Shown here: positions 49,411-64,000 of the stretch, piece after piece
How positions within the stretch are numbered: position 1 is the stretch's first letter
Layout of the letters: each line of letters opens with the position of its first letter
Source of the DNA: Syncephalis plumigaleata
Taxonomy: Eukaryota; Zoopagomycota; Zoopagomycetes; Zoopagales; Piptocephalidaceae
DNA: 64,000 nt
NCBI GenBank assembly: GCA_025201365.1
Contig: JAIXMF010000013.1
Span: 248,001 to 312,000 of the forward strand
Direction: 5' to 3'
The notes under the pieces: generated by a model
The model's database searches: none
What the model saw: only the letters and a program-made list of their open reading frames with translations
Told to the model about the DNA's origin: nothing
Translations under genes and position numbers: made by a program

Positions 49411-51283
49411 ATGGATAACTCGAACTGTTTGGTAGATGGGTGTATTATGACTTGTCAACAAGCACATTAACTCGACAATGTTCGTATCGCATTGATAATG
49501 TGGATCGATCATTCGGGAATCGAGTAACAAATTATCAACGTGATGATGATGCTGCTGCTGATAATGATGATCAGCATTTTTGTCCAACCTCCATCGACAA
49601 TACCAATATTCATTGTCAAGAAGTGTTTGATTCCTCCATTGCGTCAACTTCCATGGCAAATGACAATGAACAATCAACGTTTGCTACATGCTTAGCATAC
49701 GAGCGTACTGGGAATGTGCAAGTATCCTTACCGTCAAGCGAGGTGGCCAATTCGATCCATTCTCACCACGAGGAAAATATGCAAGCGGGTACTGTGACCA
49801 CTGCATCTATGATGCAGCTGCAGTGTCTGCTTAGTATACCATCCGTCGAGTGTTATCGAGTGTTCCATGGCCATCAACGCCTTCTGGCATCCGGTTTACT
49901 CGTGGTACGGCATGGTTACATTTACAGCAATGATGCCTCGGATGCTCCCCCGTCCTACGATGTTGTACTCGTAAATATTGGTGAGCATTTCCAAATTCCA
50001 CTGGTGTATCGTGGTCGTGCATGGCGATGCGGACGAATGCAATGGATGGTCTCGGTATCGGGAGAAGAGTTCCCAGTTAAACTTGTATTTGACATGCAGT
50101 AAGTGTTACTATGATAACGAAGAGAAGAATAGACAGAAAGCAGGTATATAGTTCCTCCCATTTACAATATTTTCTATTTCTATTCTATTCATTCCTGTTA
50201 GAACTTGCAAGGAGCATATCCTTGAATGGCATCAATTATTAGAGCGATATACTATCTATGATCCTGATGCATGGGAGGAACTCATATTTACGGATGATAT
50301 AGCCGCAATACCGACGGATCCATTGCCCTCCTATGAATATGTGGTATGTGTAACACTGTCTAGTACAATATCCAGTCGTTCTAACGATTAGTGTTCAGCT
50401 GATGGAGATAGTGTTCATGGCGTATAGCAGGTCAGTGAGCAACTGGATGATTGGCGTGTCTAATGCGGCAGCGGATAAACTACGCCGCGTTGGTGGTACA
50501 ATTGGCACAATCGCCTATCTGTAAGTTAACATCATGTAATAATGATTATTATGACATTGGTTATGTAACCTTTTTCTATCTACACTAGCACCACTCGTAA
50601 TATACGACAACGAAATCGTATCACGATAGACGAGGCGACGAGCAAGACCGTGTAGTAAATGTACATCCACTGTTGATGACCATCACACCACAGTGGCACC
50701 ATGTACTTCTTTGAAGGCCATTCCCATCCAGACTAACAGGATATATACCGCTTCCGGTAATATTCAAGGACATGTACTAGCTATGGCACAACATACTGGA
50801 CAGCTCACGAATGGTAATGCATCGTCATTCATCGTATACCTATTGCTAATTAGTATATTGTATAGCTATCACATCCATTGGACAGTCTGCATTGAAGGGT
50901 CTATCGCAACTACTATTTGGACAGGAACGTGAGATTATGGTAAGTGATTTTATTGTTGATATAATTGAAATGCAATTAGCTTATGTATCACATCATGTAA
51001 AGGCATACTCATCATCTCTACATCGTGTACGAGGTCAAACGGGAATTGCCGTCGATATTCTATGTCAAGGTGTAATGGAAGGCGCTCAGTCGGCCACCAG
51101 TAGTGTTTTCGAAAGCTTTGCCACGTTTGTCGAGTATAGGTAACAATGATGTAATGAGCATTAATCCCTACATACTTACACATTCATTATTTATACATAA
51201 TTTGTAGATATGGTACAAATACTGAACAGTTCATACGACAAGTCGTACACAATATTACACAAAGGGAATCAATCGAGGATTAG
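49411..51283 (+). CDS. Spartin-like protein with senescence domain, frame slips
   Basis: The N-terminal part (to 50098) holds LLSIPSVECYRVF, LLASGLLVVRHGYIY and PSYDVVLVNIGEHFQIPLV, the beta-rich region seen ahead of the senescence domain in fungal spartin homologues. The later exons resemble the senescence/spartin domain: VSNWMIGVSNAAADKLRRVG, IYTASGNIQGHVLAMAQ, IGQSALKGLSQLLFG, then VMEGAQSATSSVFES and VEYRYGTNTEQFIRQVV, ending at 51283. Spartin-type proteins sit on lipid droplets and endosomes. Exon edges: donor near 50099, exons from about 50202, 50591, 50865 and 51208. The start ATG 49411 (MDNSNCLVDG) needs a one-base slip near 49440, and two further slips lie between about 50650 and 50705. 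The assignment is moderate and rests on the C-terminal block. Confidence 0.65.
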
Positions 51284-51877
51284 TATAATTGTACTCCTCT
51301 CCATTCACTTGTAACAGTATCGATTATTAGATATTTCTTGGTGATAACTAGTTTATTAATAGAAATATATAGATTTATTATTTCATTACTATCATATGTT
51401 AGTATTATTAATGAGTATACACATGTCTTTGTAGTGATAATGGCTTATAGTGTGTTGATTGAAATTACTATTGTTTGTCTTGCAAACTATCATTGTAGTA
51501 CAAATTCACGTGGATGCTATCCGACCAATCAAAAGTCATGCTCAAAACAGTTCAGGTATTACTGCGTTCTTCGGTGACGTTTTACCGCTTCTTCTTGCTA
51601 CAAATATTTCATTCGTATCGACTTCTTTAACCGTTCGTTTGTCTTTGTCCCTACCTGCATTCCCTTCCAGCTCACACTCTTTCCTCACTCTTGAAAGCAA
51701 CTAGTGTGCCACTTCCTCTACTTCGTATTATATCCTGCGTTACCTAGTGACAAGTACAGCGACGGTTGATAGGTAGCTTCTCTCGTTCTTTCCCTTCTCT
51801 TCTTTCCACTTTCCACTGCTTCATTTCAATTCCTCACTCTGTCTATATTGAAATAAGCAAGCAAGCAAGCATACAAC
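51284..51877. promoter_or_regulatory. Pyruvate carboxylase upstream region with CT-rich tract
   Basis: About 590 bp upstream of the carboxylase start. A pyrimidine-rich stretch (about 51776-51843) precedes a short AAGCAAGCAAGCAAGC repeat just before the ATG. This fits a housekeeping fungal promoter; no named factor site was recognised. Confidence 0.35.
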
Positions 51878-54800
51878 ATGCAACCAACACTCGAGTGTCT
51901 TCGTCGTGGTAGTATTGGCGCTAACGCTAACTCTAAGGTGCTCGTGGCCAATCGAGGCGAGATTGCTACACGCGTTTTTCGGTCGGCACACGAGATTGGA
52001 CTACGTACCGTGGCAATTTACAGTCATGAAGACCGGTTCTCCCTGCATCGCTCTCATTCCGACGGTAGTTTTCTTATTGGCAAACCAGGCGAGTACAGTC
52101 CAGTTGGTGCCTATCTCGCGCAAGATGAAATCATTCGTATTGCCCTGCAACAAGGTGTCGACGTTATCCATCCTGGTTATGGTTTTCTGTCAGAAAACGC
52201 AGAATTTGCACGCAAGGTCGAGCAAGCCGGTATTGCATTTGCCGGTCCATCCGCAGATGTCATTGAGAAGTTGGGCGACAAAACACGCGCTCGTCAAATT
52301 GGTAAGTAATAGAGAGAAGAGAAGAGGAGAAAGCGGAATACGGCAAGTCAACCTTCCGGATGTAGAGGATACTGCTTAATAATAATAATAATAAGTACTA
52401 TTATTGCCTGGGGCCAAAAACTTTATTGAAAATTTGTTAACTATGTGAGCTAATGGGGGGTGAAAGGGAATATTAGTAGGCTAGTGAGCAAAGAGGAAAC
52501 CGACAATAAAGGAGAAAAGTTAACTCTCCGCACCAGGCATAAGGGTCTGTGGATGGGTGGGAGAGATGGCCAACAAACGAATAAAGGAGAAAAGTAGTGG
52601 TCGCCGGTGAGCTGGACTCACCGGCTCCTTTATAAAGATTTTTGGCCTCTCATCAATAAAACGCTATTTAAAATTAAAATAGCGCTATTATTGCCTATTG
52701 TCCGGAGGTCTTATAACATGAAGTTATAAAAAGCATAGTCAAATGGATGAGGGACATATTCTGGCCGCGCGTACCTTTGCATCGAGCTTATGGTCTCCCA
52801 TAGACCATAATGCATGATTCGCGAAGCGTCTACACCAATACTGTGTGTAGCTGAAGTGAATGTACGTCGAATGCTATGGGACATCATCGAATTAGCAACG
52901 GCTGCTGGCACGCCCGCTTGCTTTAACACCTCTCTTAGAATCCCCGTAACTGTAACACTGCTCCTAAATATCTCTTTAGAGGAGAACACGGGAACCCAAA
53001 ACGTTGGTTCCGTGTTGTTGATGTATGATGCCGACTCCAGGTATCGGCGAATGAGGGGGGCGGCGATGGTTTTAGTGGTGTCGATGTTGATAGGCCGTCC
53101 AGGTTCATGCGTATGACGCTTAGAACCATGAACCACTACCCGTAGGGTAGGGCCTACCAATTGCACGTCACTCTTCTGAAGTTTCATCAGAGAGGACGCG
53201 CGCAACCCACACAATAAACCTACTAAAACCACCACCAGGTCGCGCAGCTCCTTTTGGCTTGGAGACTGCGTATCCCCCGACACCAATGGGGCCAGCCAGG
53301 AGGATGCGAAAAAGTTGTGATTGGAGGATACGGTGGGTCGTTCAGTGTACGACCACGACGCGTATCCTCTCGTTAGTTGTGCAACCAACGAGCCCTCGAT
53401 TTCCGGGAAGCCGAGATGCTCGTTGATTGACCGTAGCGCCGAAAGGCGCGATTGAATTGTGGATGGAGCCAGTTCTCGCAGACTGGCTGTGGCGATGTAA
53501 GCTGCTAATGTACCCACCTGCAAAGGGAATGGCGGCTCGTTATGTAACTCACAAAAACGCGTATAATTAGTCACATGCGAAGTGTATGTATTCCACGATG
53601 CTGCTGTATACTGCCGTTCGAATAACAACATAAGCCGCTCACGCTGCTCATCGCTCACGTTGACAGGTAGATTCAGTTGTTGCATCCAACTTCGCACCAT
53701 CTGGGCGCGCAAAGTCTCGCTCCGTCCAACCGGGCTACCAATATCTTCCAAGCGGGATTGACGAGAGGCTCCGGCATTACGTCGGTGTTGGACAATATGT
53801 TCGCCCATACCCGAGGTGAGTCTACCTCCAATGTGGAAACCATCAGCTTGAGCACCAACGGCCACCAAGGTTGACTGGTCCATCTGGGCAATATGACGGT
53901 AGCCTGCGCCTGATCTCTTACCAGCTTGTTGAGGATTACCCCGATGAGTCCGAAAGGAGGGTTGATGAAGTTGTTCTCCCCTTTCCATGACCACTGTAGA
54001 GCGTCCACTCCTTCGCAGCCATCGTTGACGTTGAGCGAGTTGTAGCGCGGTAGCTGTGCGTTCCACCCGGCTGCGAATCGATCGATTGTGTGAGGTCCGT
54101 ATGCGTCTTCTATCTCTTGAAACATTGCTTTGGGTAGTTGCCAATCTGATTTTTGTATTATTCGCGACAAGAAATCCGCTTCTACGTTGTATCTTCCTGG
54201 CAAATATTGAATCAACCCCAATAGCTGTATCTTGTTTCGTTGACATAGCTCCCATACGCGTCTCACGATGCTGTGCAAGGAAGCGCTGGAAGATGCGTGT
54301 GCATTTAGCGCGCCAATCGATGCCTGCGCGTCCATTCGGGCCTGTGCTGTGGAATTGTGTAGGAAAGTCTTGAAGGCCGTTACGCCGTATAAAAGCCCCA
54401 ACGCCTCTCGATGGACAATGTGCAACTCTTTCTCCTCCTCTGACCACTGACCGTAAGCTAATCTTTCCCGTCCTCCTTCTTCCACCATTGTCGCTCCCCA
54501 CCCTTCGTCTGACGCGTCGGTAGTAATGGTGAACTGTGCTGGACGTTGCTTTATCGGTGCGGCTGGCTGATCGCTCACGATTCGTAAGATTCGTCGCATC
54601 TCCCGTATACTGGCGTTGCTGACCTTGACTTTGACCTTCCAACTTTCCTTTCCGCGTAGATCGTTGTATAGCGCTCTGAGATGTATCATGATGTATGGAA
54701 TCGCGTGTCGTGCGGCTATGACAATGCCTGTAACCTGAGCTAACTGCTTTGCGTCGAGCTTTCGCGTCTTCTTGGCACACTCTTTTAAGGCGTGTAATAA

Positions 54801-57800
54801 GGTAAGCTTTATTTTTTCGCGATACGCGTCGGTTAATTGAAACTCCATCTTTGCAAAATCTAACCGATAACCGAGATGATCTATGACTTGCGTAGGTGTC
54901 CAAGTACATTTTGTTGGATGCGCTCGTAGACCTAAGCTCCTCAACAGTAGCTGTACCTTTTGTGGCCATCCTTCCTTCTTCTGCTGCTGGTCGAGTAGGA
55001 TCAGAAAATCGTCCAAGTAAGCTAGACATCGCAAACCTAGCCCGCGCAAATACTGTACCATGGGTCGCATTACCTTGACGAAGAAATAAGGAGACAGGTT
55101 CCAACCGAACGGTAGAGTCTGATACTGGTAATACTTTCCTAGTATCTTCGTTTGGAAGTACTGTTGCTGACTGGGCCTGATTCCTACTGCTAGATAGCCG
55201 TCCTTTAAATCGAAGGCGATAGCGGAGTCGTTGGGTTGTGCCAGATATTTTAACACGCGCAGGTCTTCGTATCGCATAGGCATTTCCTGACAATGCTGAT
55301 TCAAATAACGTAGGTCGATTATCAGTCGATAGCCTTGCGGTTTGCGAGGAATCAAGAAGGTTGGTGAGACGTATTTGGCTTGACTCTCTGGGATTTCGAT
55401 TATTGCACCGGCTTGCAACAACCGTTGAACTTCCAATTCGAGGAACTGGACTTCCGCTGGGTCGCGGGCCTGGTAGGATTGATGATGAAAAGGTGAGGGC
55501 GCGCCTGCTGCTGCCCAAGGTACCGTCACACCACGCCGGATCCACTTCAACACTCTTCCGTTCGCCCCTATATGATGCCACCGTTTCCAGGCCGATCTTA
55601 CACTTAAGTGCAGGGGCCGATCGCCTGGAGGTGGCGAGTTCGAATCAGGCATGACCGGCACCGCCCGCCGGACCGCCATTTCGAGTTGTATTGGCGGGTT
55701 TCTTGGCGTCGGTAGCCGTTGAAGCCTTTGATTTGCTGCTAGACGATTGGTTTGCAGTTCGATGAGCCTGCATACTTTCCTTCTTCCTCAGCGCACGGAG
55801 TATCTCAGCTTGGGTATTGTGTGTGTATCGAATCATACCGACCGAATCCAATCTAGACTCCACCTGTCGAATAGCGTCGTCGCTCAAATCCAAACGAGCT
55901 CTCACCATCGAATAGCGGGTAAGTACGGTACGCTCTATCACCTGTAGGATGCTGGCTACTATCAAATACCCAGGCGATCCTTTTTTCAACTCAACGTTCC
56001 AAGCTGACCACGCCTGCATGGTTCTGATGATGTACAAAACCAGCGATAACATCGCGCGTCCCTCTCGCTGTCCTTCTCCCGTTAACTTTGGGAAAATTTC
56101 ATCGTGAATGGTTGAGAGATTTTGCGGCCGTGGATCCACATAATTAACAACGGGAATAAAACCCAAGAAGGGAGTCAATAATTCATGCGACTGAGCATAT
56201 TCCGACGGCGATTCATAGAAATGTGTAATCCGAAGCAAAAATTCGACAAATTGCGGCGATGTTGGATCGAACTCCACTGGAACTTCCGCTTCTTTTTCGT
56301 TTGTAATTTTTATATTCCCACGAGGGTCCTCGTCCTCGGACGCTTCATCAGGGTCTAGCTGATTCTCGCTCGCCTCCCGCTGTTCCCTCTCGCGTTGCAT
56401 AATCTGTGCAACCTGTCGTGCCCGTTCAACATCTTGGACACCCTCCTGTATTAGACCGGGTGCTTCGGCCTCCTGACTAGCACCTGCCCTCGTACCGTTC
56501 GCCTGCAGATCATTATTGTTTGCACGATCCGAAGCTCCAGTTGGGCGATGGGGGTTCTGTAACATCCTTTGAGACACTAGATCTGCTATTGCGGCCATAT
56601 CCTCCTGACATATGCGCACAGCAGCAGGCTCTTCGTCTTCGAAATTCTGTTGACTTGACCCGTCCGACATGTTATAAAATAAAATATATGGAAATATAGA
56701 TAGATAAAGGTAAGAATATTCTTCAATAAAAAATTTTGACTTGCTAGAACGCTTTATTCAGTTGTTTGCCGAGAGAGATGGCCAACAAACGAATAAAGGA
56801 GAAAAGTAGTGGTCGCCGGTGAGCTGGACTCACCGGCTCCTTTATAAAGATTTTTGGCCTCTCATCAATAAAACGCTATTTAAAATTAAAATAGCGCTAT
56901 TAATAATAATCATTACTACTTGATACTCTGCCTATTAGCCATTGAATGTGGTGTACCGGTTATTCCCGGAACACCCGGTCCAGTTGAAACATTAACACAG
57001 GCCGAAGCATTTTGTAACGAGCATGGATTCCCCATTATCATTAAGGCGGCCATGGGTGGTGGTGGTCGTGGTATGCGCGTGGTTAATAACAAGTCTGAAC
57101 TAGCCAGTGCATTCGAACGTGCGCAAAGTGAAGCATTGGCCGCATTTGGTGATGGCACCGTGTTCATCGAACGCTTCCTCGCTCGTCCACGTCATATCGA
57201 GGTGCAACTCTTGGCCGATAACGCAGGCAATGTTATTCACTTATTCGAACGTGACTGCTCCGTGCAACGTCGTCATCAAAAAGTAGTTGAAATCGCACCT
57301 GCTCGTTTCCTCGATGTAAGTGAATATTCATTATGATAATATACGCGTATGATACTAATTCATTCCATGATAATGAATAGGAAAAAGTACGACAGGCCAT
57401 TTTAGATGATGCAGTCAAGATGGCTCGCTACGTCAAGTATCGAAATGCAGGTACAGCCGAATTCTTAGTCGATCAACAAGGTCGACACTATTTCATCGAG
57501 ATCAATCCTCGTATTCAAGTGGAGCACACTATCACAGGCAAGTAATCACAATGATGTCATGATAATAAATGAGCATTAGCTAATAGATTATCATTATCGT
57601 AAATATATAGAGGAAATCACGGGTATTGACATTGTAGCCGCTCAATTACGAATTGCCTTTGGTATGACACTACCGGAATTGGAGTTAACGCAAGAGTCTA
57701 TTCAAATACGTGGTTATGCCATCCAATGTCGTATTACTACTGAGGATCCACAGCAAGGATTCCAACCGGACACCGGTCGAATTGAAGTGTATCGATCTGC

Positions 57801-60606
57801 CGGTGGTCCCGGTGTACGATTGGACGGTGCTAGTGGCTTTGCCGGCAGTATTATTACACCACACTACGATTCCTTGTTGGTTAAGCTCACTTGTCGTGGT
57901 ACCACCTATACCGCCACGGTTGGTCGTGTATTCCGTGCACTTACCGAGTTCCGTATTCGTGGTGTTAAAACGAATATTCCCTTCTTGCAACGACTCATTA
58001 TGCATGATACCTTCCGTCATCATATTTGCTGGACGACATTCATTGACGATACGCCCGAGCTATTCCAATTGATTCGTAGTCTTAATCGTGCACAACGATT
58101 ACTAAGCTATCTAGGTGATTTGGCGGTCAATGGCAGTAGTATCAAGGGACAAATGGTAAATATATATATATGTGTGTGTGTATGTAGCAGTTTATTAATG
58201 CAATCTCACTAGGGTGAACCAACTTATTGTGAAGCATTACGCGTTCCAGTATTGCCACCACCATCTACGTCAAAGAACAATGCCAATGAACCAGTACCCG
58301 ACACTACACAATCATGTAAGGAGGGTTGGCGTAACTTGTTGTTGGAGCAAGGACCCGAGGCATTTGCTCAAGCGGTTCGACGTCATCCCGGTACATTGAT
58401 CATGGACACTACGTGGCGTGACGCGCATCAAAGTCTACTGGCCACTCGATTGCGTACCATTGACATTACTCGTGTGGCGGCAGTGTCATCGCATGCATTC
58501 AAGAACGCGTTTAGCATGGAGATGTGGGGCGGTGCCACATTCGATGTTGCCATGCGATTCCTTCATGAAGATCCATGGGATCGTTTGAAGAAGCTACGCG
58601 CCCTATGTCCCAATATTCCCTTCCAAATGTTATTACGCGGTGCTAATGCCGTCGGTTACACCTCCTATCCCGACAATGTCACCTACGAGTTTTGCAAGAA
58701 GGCGCGAGACTACGGTATAGACGTGTTCCGTGTATTCGACAGTCTCAACTACATGGAGAATCTCAAACTTGGTATGGATGCGGTACGTCAAGCGGGCGGT
58801 GTTATCGAAGCAGTGATTTGTTATACCGGTAAGTGTCGACTAATAGGAACGGAATAATTCACCAGTTTACCATAATCATCATGTACTAGGTGATGTGTCG
58901 AATCCCAGTAAAACCAAGTACAATCTCGACTACTATCTTAATCTGACGGGTGAACTCGTCAAGGAGGGTGCTCATATCCTTGGTATTAAAGATATGGCCG
59001 GTTTATTGAAGCCGAAAGCGGCCACTCTACTGGTGAAGGCCATAAGGGAAAAGTTCCCCGATCTACCCATTCATGTGCACACGCATGACACGGCCGGTAC
59101 AGGTGTGGCGAGTATGCTAGCGGCAGCAGAAGCAGGAGCAGACGTGGTTGACGTTGCCGTCGATAGTAAGTGATGCACACATCAACAAATAATGGTAGTA
59201 GTAGCGATATTAATGGCAGCCATGATTAGGTATGTCCGGTTTAACGTCACAACCATCCATGGGCGCACTAGTAGGAGCACTACAAAATACACCATTAGAC
59301 ACGGGTATTAGACATGCCGACGTGCTAGCCATCAATGCCTATTGGGAACAGATTCGTATGTTGTACAGCTGTTTCGATCCAGGCCTCAAGAGTGGTGACT
59401 CTGGTGTATATGACCATGAAATGCCTGGTGGCCAGTACACGAATCTACTATTCCAGGCTAGAACATTGGGATTAGGCGAGCAATGGGAAGAGGTGAAGCG
59501 AGCCTACCAAGAGGCCAATCAATTATGCGGCGATATTGTCAAAGTGACACCATCCTCGAAGGTGGTCGGTGATCTGGCTCAATTCATGGTGTCCAACCAA
59601 TTGACGGCGGAACAAGTCAAGGAGAAGGCGCGTTCCTTGTCATTCCCCACGTCGGTGGTCGAGTTCTTCCAGGGACATTTGGGTCAACCGGTGGGCGGAT
59701 TCCCTGAACCACTTCGATCCAATGTAGGTGTACATCATTCGTCTATTCATGAGATAGAACAATCACTAATGCCATTGGCAATCCACTATAGATTATTAAG
59801 GGATTACCCCCTATCGATGGTCGTCCCGGTGCATCTATGGAACCATTTGATTTCGAAGGACTACGAAGTAAACTCGAGAAGACCCATAATGGTCGTCAAG
59901 TGCGTGATGTCGATCTTATTAGTGCTGCACTCTATCCAAAGGTGTATGAGGAATTCCAGAGTACAGTGGAGAAATACGGCGATCTATCCATCTTGCCTAC
60001 GCAATACTTTTTGGCCAAGCCTCATGTTAATGAGGAATTCGAAGTGGAACTGGAACCGGGCAAGATGCTCATTATTAAGCTGCTTGCCATCGGTCCATTA
60101 AACGTGCACACAGGTATGCGTGACGTGTTTTTTGAGCTGAACGGCGAGACTCGTATGGTTGGCATTGAAGATAAGGGTGCAGGCAAGTGTTGACACCATA
60201 CTAGTGATAATAGCGATCACCATATAGCTAACTATTATTGTTATTGAATTACTATAGCGGTCGAGCATGTACAACGTGTCAGGGCTGATACCAACGAACC
60301 TGGTGATGTCGGTTGTCCCATGTCAGGTGTAGTGGTCGAGGTGCGAGTCAAGGGTAAGTGTACACGTACACGCTAATAGTCCATCGTGTCTCTCCTTCTC
60401 TTCCACGAATCGTTGACTAATGATATAATATGCACGATACAGAGGGTGTACACGTTAATGATGGCGATCCTATCTGTGTATTGAGTGCCATGAAGATGGA
60501 GACAGTAGTGTCGGCACCTGTATCCGGTCGAGTGGAGCGTATAGTAGTGGCTGCCAATGATTCACTAGTGGCCGGTGATCTTATCGCTCATATCGTCAAG
60601 GATTAA
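51878..60606 (+). CDS. PYC: Pyruvate carboxylase, 10 exons, intron 1 carries a retroelement
   Basis: Biotin-dependent conversion of pyruvate to oxaloacetate. Exons 51878-52301, 56939-57315, 57381-57537, 57611-58155, 58213-58828, 58890-59165, 59230-59723, 59792-60182, 60258-60353 and 60443-60606 sum to exactly 1180 codons (1179 aa), the normal length. Biotin carboxylase domain: [40 protein letters not shown] and [11 protein letters not shown]. Carboxyltransferase domain: [30 protein letters not shown]. Biotinyl domain: SAMKME, with the biotin Lys near residue 1143. No mitochondrial leader is evident, so it is probably cytosolic as in most fungi. Intron 1 (52302-56938, 4.6 kb) is about 60 times longer than the others and contains an antisense DIRS-like element; both its splice sites are intact. 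The introns after exons 3 and 8 use GC donors. Confidence 0.96.
52561..52690 (-). repeat. DIRS-like element direct repeat, internal 3' copy
   Basis: A 130-bp block beginning GAGAGATGGCCAACAAACG (plus strand) and ending AATAGCGCTATTA. It includes a GC-rich palindrome CCGGTGAGCTGGACTCACCGG. It is identical, as read by eye, to 56773-56902. It is followed on the plus strand by TTGCCT, which is also found at the outer left end (about 52405-52410), as a split-repeat arrangement predicts. Confidence 0.9.
52711..53710 (-). CDS. DIRS-like element: tyrosine recombinase region
   Basis: The C-terminal third of a long open frame (reaching up to 55581) codes a phage-integrase-type tyrosine recombinase. 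It has a SAM-like N-terminal core-binding part ([16 protein letters not shown]) and a catalytic part with [11 protein letters not shown] (first Arg), SHSIRRTF (HxxR) and a C-terminal MQRYARP (Tyr). The upstream part of that frame runs antisense-free over the reverse transcriptase region and looks like overlap rather than a separate domain. In DIRS-group elements the recombinase inserts a circular DNA copy, so no target duplication is made. Retroelement gene, not host. Confidence 0.85.
53673..55679 (-). CDS. DIRS-like element: reverse transcriptase, RNase H and adenine-methylase-like domains
   Basis: A 668-codon open frame. The reverse transcriptase domain shows [19 protein letters not shown]-type [31 protein letters not shown] and the active site [10 protein letters not shown]. 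RNase H follows with [14 protein letters not shown]. The C-terminal part ([17 protein letters not shown] ... [11 protein letters not shown]) is the domain DIRS elements share that resembles DNA N6-adenine methylases, with NPPF in the catalytic position. The order RT-RNase H-methylase is diagnostic of the DIRS group. Confidence 0.88.
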   Translation of the reverse strand: MAVRRAVPVMPDSNSPPPGDRPLHLSVRSAWKRWHHIGANGRVLKWIRRGVTVPWAAAGAPSPFHHQSYQARDPAEVQFLELEVQRLLQAGAIIEIPESQAKYVSPTFLIPRKPQGYRLIIDLRYLNQHCQEMPMRYEDLRVLKYLAQPNDSAIAFDLKDGYLAVGIRPSQQQYFQTKILGKYYQYQTLPFGWNLSPYFFVKVMRPMVQYLRGLGLRCLAYLDDFLILLDQQQKKEGWPQKVQLLLRSLGLRAHPTKCTWTPTQVIDHLGYRLDFAKMEFQLTDAYREKIKLTLLHALKECAKKTRKLDAKQLAQVTGIVIAARHAIPYIMIHLRALYNDLRGKESWKVKVKVSNASIREMRRILRIVSDQPAAPIKQRPAQFTITTDASDEGWGATMVEEGGRERLAYGQWSEEEKELHIVHREALGLLYGVTAFKTFLHNSTAQARMDAQASIGALNAHASSSASLHSIVRRVWELCQRNKIQLLGLIQYLPGRYNVEADFLSRIIQKSDWQLPKAMFQEIEDAYGPHTIDRFAAGWNAQLPRYNSLNVNDGCEGVDALQWSWKGENNFINPPFGLIGVILNKLVRDQAQATVILPRWTSQPWWPLVLKLMVSTLEVDSPRVWANILSNTDVMPEPLVNPAWKILVARLDGARLCAPRWCEVGCNN
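55645..56670 (-). CDS. DIRS-like element: gag-like frame
   Basis: A 341-codon open frame at the element's 5' side, starting [15 protein letters not shown]. It has an acidic, Gln-rich first half, a helical second half, and a Lys/Ala/Ser-rich tail ending near the RT frame, with which it overlaps slightly. Position and composition fit the gag-like first gene of DIRS elements; no zinc knuckle is visible. Confidence 0.7.
   Translation of the reverse strand: MSDGSSQQNFEDEEPAAVRICQEDMAAIADLVSQRMLQNPHRPTGASDRANNNDLQANGTRAGASQEAEAPGLIQEGVQDVERARQVAQIMQREREQREASENQLDPDEASEDEDPRGNIKITNEKEAEVPVEFDPTSPQFVEFLLRITHFYESPSEYAQSHELLTPFLGFIPVVNYVDPRPQNLSTIHDEIFPKLTGEGQREGRAMLSLVLYIIRTMQAWSAWNVELKKGSPGYLIVASILQVIERTVLTRYSMVRARLDLSDDAIRQVESRLDSVGMIRYTHNTQAEILRALRKKESMQAHRTANQSSSSKSKASTATDAKKPANTTRNGGPAGGAGHA
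56773..56902 (-). repeat. DIRS-like element direct repeat, 5' terminal copy
   Basis: The terminal copy of the 130-bp repeat, same orientation and sequence as 52561-52690. It ends 36 bp upstream of the exon 2 acceptor of pyruvate carboxylase, leaving the presumed original intron end (TAATAATAATCATTACTAC onward) in place. Confidence 0.9.
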
Positions 60607-60841
60607 AGAAGAAGAATAGCTAATCGGTATCTTTTATTAAAAATAGCTCTGTTGTTATTTCCGTCTATTTATTGTACACCAATAGTAGTAGTAATATGAT
60701 ATCATGGAATGTATATGACAGAAAAAAGAACACAATACAGTCATTAACTAACTAACTAATTCATTCATATCATATAAGAAACTACTAGTAATTCATCGAG
60801 TAGCATGGATTTACTCATACAAAGAAAGCATGCCCATTGAA
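60607..60841. other. Convergent 3' spacer PYC/ArgJ
   Basis: 235 bp between two stop codons; AT-rich with ACTA repeats near 60745. No coding signal. Confidence 0.5.
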
Positions 60842-62329
60842 TTATGATCGATAATCTGCATTAATACTAACGTAATCATGCGAGAAATCACATGTCCACA
60901 TTGTCGCCGACTCTTGTCCTAAACCCAAATCAATATGAATCTCGATATCCTCATTGCGTAGTAGTTCAGCGGCGAATGTCTCATCTACTGGCACCGGTTC
61001 ACCATGACGCAACACGGGTAGTGGCTGTTCAGGCTGAGCAGTTGCCTTGAAGGTGACACTTACACGCTCGGGATGAATGGTCGTCTCGCTACCAGGAGCG
61101 TAGCCAATAGCACATAATACACGACCCCAATTGGCATCTTGACCGTAGAGTGCCGTCTTCACTAGAGCACTCGTACAAATGGTGGATGCAATTGTCTTGG
61201 CTTGATCGAAATCATGAGCATTCTAATAGTTCACTCGTCATTAACATTGCTTGTGCTATTGTGATATGCTTACCTTTACCGCTACCGTAATAAACTTGGT
61301 GGCACCTTCACCGTCACGTACCACCAGTTGAGCTAGTTCCGCCGAGAATTCAGTCAATTGATCGCGGAATACCGGATAGTCGGTATCATTCGTAGTCAGT
61401 GAATTGCTAGATGTCCAGGCAGCACCGTTAGCCAATAGTGCCACCGTATCATTAGTACTTGTGTCGCCATCCACGCTAATGGCATTGAATGATCGATCGA
61501 CGGCATGACTTAGTGCCCGCTGTAGAGTGTCAGCCTGTATGGCAGCATCGGTACACATGAAGCTAAGCATTGTCGCCATGTTAGGATGAATCATACCGGC
61601 ACCTTTGGCTATACCGGCCAAACAATACTCACGACCCGAAGGTAGTTGATAGCGTTTACTACGCAATTTAGGGAATGTATCGGTGGTGCAAACACCTTTA
61701 GCGGCAGCTAGCCAACTTGCATGATCATAGCCCAAATGATGTTCATATAGATTGGGCACACCTGCACTAATACGATTCATCGGTAGATGCTGACCAATAA
61801 CACCGGTTGACATGATGAATGTGGCATCACTAGTCGAGTTGTTCGTGGATGAGGACAGTTGTTGATTGACGGCTGCCGCCATAGCAGCTGCATCTTTATC
61901 ACCTTGCGTGCCAGTGACAGCATTAGCACAACCTGAATTAACGAGAATCGCCTGAATGGGATGACGCGTAGGATTGGCGTGGTGTCGAGCGAGTAGTGCA
62001 CGATCAAATTGAACGGGAGCAGCGGGGAATGCGTTACGCGTAAATACAGCCGCGGCAGTACATGGTTTATCCGCCACCAACAGGGTGAGATCGAGTCCTG
62101 ATTTTTTAACACCGCAGTGTACGGCACCTAACCGATAACCCTGCGGATAAGTGCCGCTACTGGGAATAAATCGATCCTTTGACGATACGGACGCTTGTGT
62201 CTGTGCCATACGAACTATCGGTGATGTCGTATATTGTCTAGCGTAGAATAGACTATTAGGAGAAGGACCACGACGACAAGTAGTGGCAATACGCGTAGAG
62301 TACTGCGTAATGAATAGTGTAGACTTCAT
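60842..62329 (-). CDS. argJ: ArgJ, bifunctional ornithine/glutamate N-acetyltransferase
   Basis: Two exons (61274-62329 and 60842-61222) give 478 aa. The enzyme moves acetyl groups between N-acetylornithine and glutamate, closing the acetyl cycle of arginine synthesis in mitochondria. Family motifs: [44 protein letters not shown], then [14 protein letters not shown], where the precursor cleaves itself ahead of the catalytic Thr of [28 protein letters not shown] and [16 protein letters not shown]. The N-terminus [20 protein letters not shown] is basic and hydroxylated, a good mitochondrial presequence; ATG 62329 was chosen for it. Confidence 0.95.
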
Positions 62330-64000
62330 ATTACTAATAATTGGAAATGACACAACAAGAAAAAGAAGAATTCGTAATGGATAATAGATAGATAGATAGC
62401 TAGGTAGATAGCTAGGTAGATAGATAGACAGATATGGTAGTTAGGTTATTCAACAATCTGATTTGTATTGTATGGAGAGTGAGTGTGTTTTTGTTGTAGT
62501 TAGTAGAATGATTTGATATGGAATAAAAGTGATGACACCAATCAGCGAGCAACATCTGATCAATGGAATAGATGATGGATATCTATCAATTCATCTTTCG
62601 ATCACATCTAAATGTTACAATCATTCAAAACATCAGCATCAGCATCTATAGCGTCATCTGTATTAATAGTTATTCCATATTAACTGGTATAATAATGGTG
62701 TAGACATATAAAAGAGGTACATGATCGTGCAAGTGACCAACAAGCAATATCGTTTTATCTTTGCCTTCTTTATTACATTTGCTCTCTTTATTCCTTCTAG
62801 TATTATTGACAAACATAATAGTAAAGGTAATAGCCCATATTAAACTAGAATATATGTCACTACGAATAGGTAAGTAAGGAATACTCTCCTTCTTATATAA
62901 CCAATCGATAACTATGTAGGTAATCATACTAGAATATTTATTTAACTAATTCTTCGGCAAATTACATGCTATAATAGGGCACAACTTTAGTATGTTAACA
63001 CATAGAGCAATCCTACACCAGTCATTTATCCATATCAGAACATGATGGACGTATAGCAACATTTATACAAATGATAAGCAATCACGTTAGCAGTAACATG
63101 AGCAACTATCATATCATATCAACTGATAATTCATTCATGATAAGCATGGACTTGTTCTGGCTATTCATACACATGAGGTACACCTTGAGCTGAATTGGAC
63201 AGAGTAGGTGAAGGGGAATTTTACTGCTCACCTCTCTTCCTCTCTTCTTGACAAAACATTTCAATGTCGTCATTGCTACACCGACAATCATTGGAGAATG
63301 AAACCGGATGGAAATTGCAGCGACCATTGTATTTCACGAGCATGTGTGCGAATGTACGTTGCACTCGTTTGCTTGCTTGTTGGCTTGTTAAGTTTCATGA
63401 CATTCCTTCTTCTTCTGTACGAACATAAGAAGGGAAAAAGCCACATATAGTACAATCACATTGTTGCGTAAAAGAGGCGTTTTACTCCAATGTAACAGGT
63501 AAGTATGAAAGTGTTATCCGATTTATTCCGAATAATCCATACGAGCAATGGCCTCGAAATATACGTGTTTCTTCTATATCCTACTTGAGTAGATTGAGTA
63601 CCATTATGCCTGTCATTTCTCGTATTCTACTTGTAGACAAGTGTCGTCATAAGTTATCGCTATTAATGAACGAGGTAGCCATTGTTGATAATGTTCGCTA
63701 CTTGCTATACAGACAATAACGTACCAATCCACATTTACTGACCGGCATATGCGCGTAATGTAGTCACGTAGAAGCGGGCGTTAAACCAATAGCCGAGCAA
63801 CCGTTGACAATTATCACATGTCACGTCTAGGCAAACTACAATCCGACCGGTTTGGCAATGGCCGATTAAGAAACAACAGGCAACACGTCGTAGTAAGAAC
63901 CATTGCAATTTAGCGTGTGTACAAGTGTGCGTGCGTGTGTACGTGTGTACGTATACGTATACGTGTGCAACTCCCAAGAGGAATAGAGAGATAACAGCGA
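62330..64000. other. Gene-poor right end
   Basis: About 1.7 kb upstream of ArgJ and on to the window edge. It holds GATA-type repeats (TAGATAGATAGATAGC near 62384-62425), GT-rich repeats near 63915-63965 and small open frames. One minor frame ending at 63450 encodes a possible single transmembrane segment (VALVCLLVGLLSFMTFLLLL), but nothing else supports a gene. Confidence 0.45.

Follow-up and report, generated by a model that had tools for sequence, protein, structure and literature searches.

A young PAT-like retrotransposon in pyruvate carboxylase intron 1 of Syncephalis plumigaleata, very probably a recent insertion on one of two haplotypes

Introduction

Does a fungus that carries a complete retroelement inside an intron of an intact metabolic gene tolerate the long intron that results, or is another explanation to be preferred? 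This question is raised by a 64,000 nucleotide (nt) stretch of the genome of Syncephalis plumigaleata (contig JAIXMF010000013.1 of assembly GCA_025201365.1, positions 248,001 to 312,000; hereafter the window, in whose coordinates features are given unless another contig is named). In this window, intron 1 of a pyruvate carboxylase (PC) gene is filled by an antisense tyrosine recombinase (YR) retroelement. The host is a mycoparasite and a member of the Zoopagomycota. An earlier reading, made from the letters without database searches (termed here the sequence-only reading), had described the element as DIRS-like and had concluded that an intron some 60 times longer is evidently tolerated by the host.

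We find that an intact, element-free PC gene is present in the same assembly, and that empty counterparts exist for most other copies of the element. The architecture of the element, coupled with these empty loci, makes it very probable that a young, structurally intact YR retrotransposon of the PAT-like type was recently inserted into PC intron 1 on one haplotype only.

Results

Two versions of the PC gene

The PC gene comprises 10 exons on the plus strand (51878–60606), and our splice model yields a protein of 1179 amino acids (aa) with a single terminal stop. Exon 1 (51878–52301, +) matches the N-terminus of PC from Syncephalis fuscata (P0024), a protein that is 88% identical, covers the whole query and aligns uninterrupted across the join between exons 1 and 2. 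Intron 1 of the inserted allele (52302–56938, +) is 4637 nt long and retains an intact GTAAGT donor and TATTAG acceptor. The sequence-only reading had reported both 1179 open codons on removal of this intron and the conservation of its splice sites, and the splice model bears out these claims with exact coordinates. Exons 2–10 (56939–60606, +) are separated by eight introns of 65, 73, 57, 61, 64, 68, 75 and 89 nt, such that the further claim that all other introns are under 80 nt is correct for seven of the eight and fails for the longest (range 57–89 nt). Two of the nine PC introns are of the GC-AG type with GCAAGT donors (57538–57610 and 60183–60257). The deposited S. plumigaleata PC (P0025) matches 85% of the query at 100% identity. 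This 1000 aa model begins with MGGGGRGM inside exon 2 and presents a practical trap, in that it omits exon 1, which precedes the element-filled intron.

A second PC version resides on contig C239 of the same assembly. This contig is colinear with 51257–52394 at 98.3% identity and with 56897–63996 at 97.4%, and contains no element sequence between the two segments. Its intron 1 is only 141 nt, making the filled intron 33 times longer, and its PC gene is intact (1179 aa, one stop). The coding sequences of this version and of the version in the window (contig C35) differ at 39 of 3540 nt, with 34 of the differences being synonymous and five not. Two other stretches of the window that were picked regardless of the element each have one second copy as well (98% identity over 1456 of 2501 nt, and 96% over 2501 nt), and therefore the assembly seems to contain a second haplotype. 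Single-cell sequencing indicated that three of four Zoopagomycota are non-haploid, as described in PMC6784888 for a set in which the genus was represented by S. pseudoplumigaleata and not by S. plumigaleata.

Because an intact element-free PC gene is found in the same assembly, tolerance of the long intron is not established, and this part of the sequence-only reading is not supported. In the meantime, PC can come from the intact version that lacks the element.

Empty counterparts of other insertions

A genome search identified 11 full copies of the element, including the copy in PC. The left flanks of the ten non-PC copies were used as queries for empty loci, and 40 of 133 candidates were scored. 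Within this scope, a second locus was found for nine of the ten (10 of 11 sites when PC is included), and all ten second loci are empty. At eight of the ten sites, the aligned flank is 684 nt or longer on each side. At each of the nine non-PC sites, the empty core reads AAT where the filled locus reads AAT-element-AAT. The spacing of the flanks is exactly 3 nt at eight of these empty sites, and the remaining one (L003) has an added 6 nt short-tandem-repeat difference. At site L001 the core is ambiguous by one unit because the target reads AATAAT. These empty loci therefore display what characterizes the order DIRS, namely integration at a short core that leaves the target site unduplicated.

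Architecture of the element

The element proper spans 52400–56901 on the minus strand (4502 nt, counting the core trinucleotide AAT, as read in element sense, at both ends) and leaves 98 nt and 37 nt of host intron on its two sides. The existence of a whole-looking antisense YR retroelement in PC intron 1 is thereby confirmed. This copy (L002) is exact in the window, and its ends are common to all 11 copies.

In its own 5′ to 3′ direction, the element is organized as A1-[Gag, RT-RH-Dam, YR]-B1A2B2, where RT, RH and Dam denote reverse transcriptase, RNase H and a Dam-type methyltransferase. Repeat A1 (56773–56901, −) forms the 5′ end, is 129 nt long and is identical to repeat A2 (52561–52689, −), likewise of 129 nt. 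Open reading frame (ORF) 1 (55645–56670, −) is Gag-like by position, has its first ATG at 56670 and encodes 341 aa, for which a Pfam scan returned no match above cut-off. The stop-to-stop frame of ORF2 (53673–55787, −) shares a 143 nt overlap with that of ORF1 and encodes an RT with a YLDD motif, RNase H and a Dam-type methyltransferase (PF00078, PF17917 and PF05869, all above cut-off). The YR is encoded by the 52711–53703 part (−) of ORF3, whose open frame reaches upstream to 55644. This protein matches PF00589 above cut-off and presents R, HxxR and Y in that order (R...HxxR...Y). Within it, residues 12–110 are similar to the N-terminal portion of Cre (E = 2e-6), and a protein search with the recombinase part returned no match at E ≤ 0.001. 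The short repeat B1 (52690–52696, −; AGGCAAT) adjoins A2 and copies the outer 3′ end of the element, which is formed by the B2 segment (52400–52560, −) and ends GGCAAT-AAT. The sequence common to B1 and B2 is only AGGCAAT, located next to the core.

Classification

The RT and YR domains (PF00078, 70.9 bits; PF00589, 41.7 bits; both above cut-off) place the element in the order DIRS, and no integrase families were listed at E ≤ 0.1 across its three frames. PAT elements are defined by a methyltransferase together with split direct repeats (PMC4157794), and both features are present here, as a PF05869 match of 34.3 bits against a cut-off of 28.1 and as the A1-B1A2B2 arrangement. A Pat1-like zinc finger was also sought in Gag, and ORF1 contains just one Cys in frame and no CCHC pattern. 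Two other assignments can be ruled out. Ngaro elements lack a methyltransferase and DIRS1-like elements have inverted repeats, according to PMC4157794 and PMC3266345. The PF05869 domain excludes Ngaro membership, and a DIRS1-like structure is excluded by the finding that none of the three inverted pairs in 51800–57400 joins the two ends of the element. The element is PAT-like and not DIRS1-like, with ‘PAT-like’ used as a purely structural label. The term DIRS-like in the sequence-only reading is thus sound for the order and misleading for the ends, which are split direct repeats in the PAT layout rather than inverted repeats of the DIRS1 type.

The element has in common with Pat1 and Toc3 the A1-B1A2B2 repeats, RT-RNase H, Dam-type methyltransferase and a forward YR (definitions from PMC4157794). 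Like Toc3, and unlike Pat1-type elements, it has a Gag without a zinc finger (definitions from the same source). Points of difference are a B repeat of just 7 nt in addition to the core and an early-diverging fungus as host. With DIRS1-like elements it shares the RT-RH-methyltransferase-YR set, overlapping ORFs and a 3 nt core without target duplication (PMC3266345), but it has no inverted terminal repeats. A1-[ORFs]-B1A2B2 ends and solo AB copies are shared with Ngaro, for which both have been reported in Cafeteria (PMC8547959), whereas the methyltransferase of the Syncephalis element has no Ngaro counterpart.

A second family in the same genome, with a polymerase only 28% identical, served as a positive control for the DIRS1 layout. 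The copy inspected (L060, G000:C329:325600-330200) has inverted ends of 147 nt (97% complementarity), and each of them finds its complement in an internal segment. For RT and Dam, the Pfam matches of this copy are above cut-off; for the recombinase, the only match is to PF02899, below cut-off (19.3 of 22.3 bits). Related polymerases with open frames were also observed as two further types, of 711 aa (nine equal-scoring places) and 702 aa (six places), and L060 is the sole copy inspected among the 711 aa type.

DIRS-type YR retroelements are known from early-diverging fungi, and among fungi Ngaro elements were recorded only in Dikarya, as reported by Muszewska et al. (2013; PMC3783388). These authors defined DIRS by inverted repeats and classified elements by protein domains, and because of this, elements with a PAT layout could be among their DIRS. 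A literature search, whose coverage did not extend to most subscription journals, retrieved no report of a PAT-layout element in an early-diverging fungus or of the present insertion in PC.

Copies and age of the family

In addition to the 11 full copies, the genome search revealed one copy at a contig edge and two 379 nt fragments of 91–93% identity. All three ORFs are open in each of the 11 full copies, between which substitutions amount to 0–2.11%. The PC copy and a copy on C351 have no substitutions over 4502 nt, compared with a difference of 1.23% between haplotypes in the flanks. A further copy on C35 (G000:C35:215720-219709), beyond the window and approximately 80 kb away from the one in PC, differs by only 0.04%; its second locus (L037) is empty. 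The copy at the contig edge (L012) shares an identical flank of 1189 nt with L004 and was left out of the site count; over the element it shows 97.6% identity and 41 gaps, perhaps contig-end noise. The two fragments (L013 and L014) derive from the recombinase region and are located on two contigs that look allelic, in stretches that are 97–98% alike. Since these fragments are truncated, the lineage must predate the current burst.

The A repeat occurs 25 times. Of these occurrences, 22 are in the 11 full copies, one belongs to the contig-edge copy and two stand by themselves. One solo occurrence, on C374 (L063, G000:C374:8000-8900), is a complete A2B2 unit of 290 nt at 250–539 with AAT at both ends (99.7% identity over a 293 nt alignment), which probably arose by recombination between A1 and A2. 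The other, on C90, is partial and 95% identical. Collectively, the copies fit a recent burst of insertions at a 3 nt core without target duplication.

A Pfam scan of ten ORFs near the other insertion sites revealed no further insertion inside a gene. Matches above cut-off were obtained for an IMP dehydrogenase ORF, whose end is 374 nt away from the L009 site, and for a protein kinase ORF that starts about 210 nt from the L010 site. In the window itself, a tRNA-Ser at 50–131 was the sole result of Rfam and tRNA scans, and open frames downstream of PC (60842–62440, −) belong to what is presumably an ornithine acetyltransferase (ArgJ) gene.

A candidate insertion mechanism

In the model described for DIRS1-like elements, a circular intermediate recombines its 3 bp junction with an identical genomic sequence, and no target duplication is generated (PMC3266345). 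By analogy with this published YR retroelement model, the Syncephalis element would be copied via RNA into a circle. The internal B1A2 junction, GGCAAT-AAT-AGCGC, is the exact product of joining the two ends of the element, and this internal copy would preserve the end-to-end junction of the circle as a template. The recombinase would then act between the 3 nt core of this circle and an identical chromosomal triplet, whereby the whole circle would be inserted with no target duplication. The empty loci show the AAT that core recombination predicts.

Possible effects of the insertion on PC expression

Branch-point-like heptamers were ranked by a score of our own. The top heptamer in the element-free intron 1 is TACTAAT, 38 nt from the acceptor, and the element was inserted between TACT and AAT, splitting this motif. 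At the left insertion junction (52396–52402, +), TACT is followed by the core of the element where the element-free version reads TACTAAT. At the opposite junction, the end of the element and the host AAT rebuild a somewhat weaker motif, TATTAAT, which is 35 nt from the acceptor and ranks first in two of the eight other PC introns. On the PC-sense strand the element also contains nine AATAAA hexamers, seven of which are in its non-coding ends; the first is at 52505, such that these signals begin 203 nt into the intron. The mean number in 500 simulated sequences (first-order Markov model) was 1.5, and none reached nine. The split branch-point-like motif and the AATAAA signals of the antisense element may lower the splicing efficiency of the inserted allele. 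To judge from these motifs, either reduced splicing or early polyadenylation of this allele is plausible.

Discussion

Recent insertion on one haplotype accounts for the element-free PC gene, the other empty loci and the close similarity of the copies, but several observations weigh against this reading or parts of it. The PC site fits the other sites in length and not in core. Its empty core is ATT (element sense) instead of AAT, a difference of one base, and the neighbouring (TAA)n tract also differs in length between the two versions. A single-nucleotide polymorphism or a mismatched core must therefore be assumed, with a polymorphism between haplotypes being likely and a mismatched core possible. 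Colinearity with the second locus is short at L004 (268 nt on its right side) and at L010 (229 nt and 358 nt), which makes these two less certain, and L007, which lies in a repeat, was unscored and stands outside the ten. L004 is furthermore represented by two filled contigs (C112 and C289, with an identical 1189 nt flank) and one empty contig (C30), which may reflect redundancy or a third copy. C239 could derive from a second strain in the culture and not from a sister chromosome, and the identity between copies may be inflated by assembly polishing of repeats. The B repeat comprises no more than 7 nt besides the core. With regard to splicing, the top motifs of seven of the eight other introns are 14–27 nt from the acceptor (the eighth is at 46), compared with 38 and 35 nt here, and the branch-point score is our own heuristic, applied in an AT-rich microsatellite.

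The alternative that survives best, although we regard it as somewhat unlikely, is that the 4.6 kb intron is spliced out efficiently and that the element is a harmless passenger, a proposal that is compatible with a heterozygous insertion. The intact donor and acceptor, the rebuilt TATTAAT that is also the top match in two other introns of the gene, and the continuous 1179 codons are all consistent with it. However, tolerance is not required when an element-free version is present, and a copy with no substitutions relative to another is so young that nothing can be learned from its intact state. Moreover, exon 1 is absent from the deposited protein model, and the excess of PC-sense AATAAA over the simulated mean points in the opposite direction.

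A more speculative proposal, which we consider doubtful, is that the antisense element serves as an allele-specific and in principle reversible switch for PC. The branch site would be broken, transcripts would be polyadenylated early in intron 1, the inserted allele would be silenced, and recombination between the two AAT cores could remove the element without a trace. Branch-point disruption is countered by the consideration that, if the inserted haplotype already carried ATT (PC sense) at the core, it would have lacked TACTAAT earlier. Were the switch real, the isolate would be functionally hemizygous for PC, and the ten filled and empty pairs would constitute ready controls for the effects of YR retroelements on host genes.

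It is improbable, to a slightly greater degree, that C239 represents a paralogous segmental duplication or a contaminating strain instead of an allele. Both of the other window stretches examined have one second copy, and so do nine other insertion sites (with 40 of 133 candidates scored), which fits a genome-wide second haplotype. The non-haploid state of three of four Zoopagomycota noted above also weighs against this alternative. Very improbable is the idea that the empty sites were generated by precise YR-mediated excision and are not alleles that never held the element. Recombination between two AAT cores would leave a single AAT, as is found at empty sites. But 262 of 21311 aligned flank positions (1.23%) distinguish the filled loci from the empty ones, and therefore the empty loci are different haplotypes and not excision products; in addition, the empty PC core differs from AAT. 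An assembly chimera, a possibility raised by the sequence-only reading, can be dismissed almost entirely, given the identical ends at 11 sites with differing flanks and the ten matching empty loci. The recurrence of both ends at these 11 sites also shows that the element is no chance match.

Recent insertion on one haplotype thus remains the reading that we favor. In this reading, a young family of YR retrotransposons is captured at a stage when it occupies only one of two haplotypes, and the paired empty loci disclose its target core. Early-diverging fungi thereby gain an element that combines a methyltransferase with split direct repeats. Because filled and empty loci occur as pairs in one genome, the chemistry of YR insertion and the effect of an antisense element on splicing are testable allele against allele.

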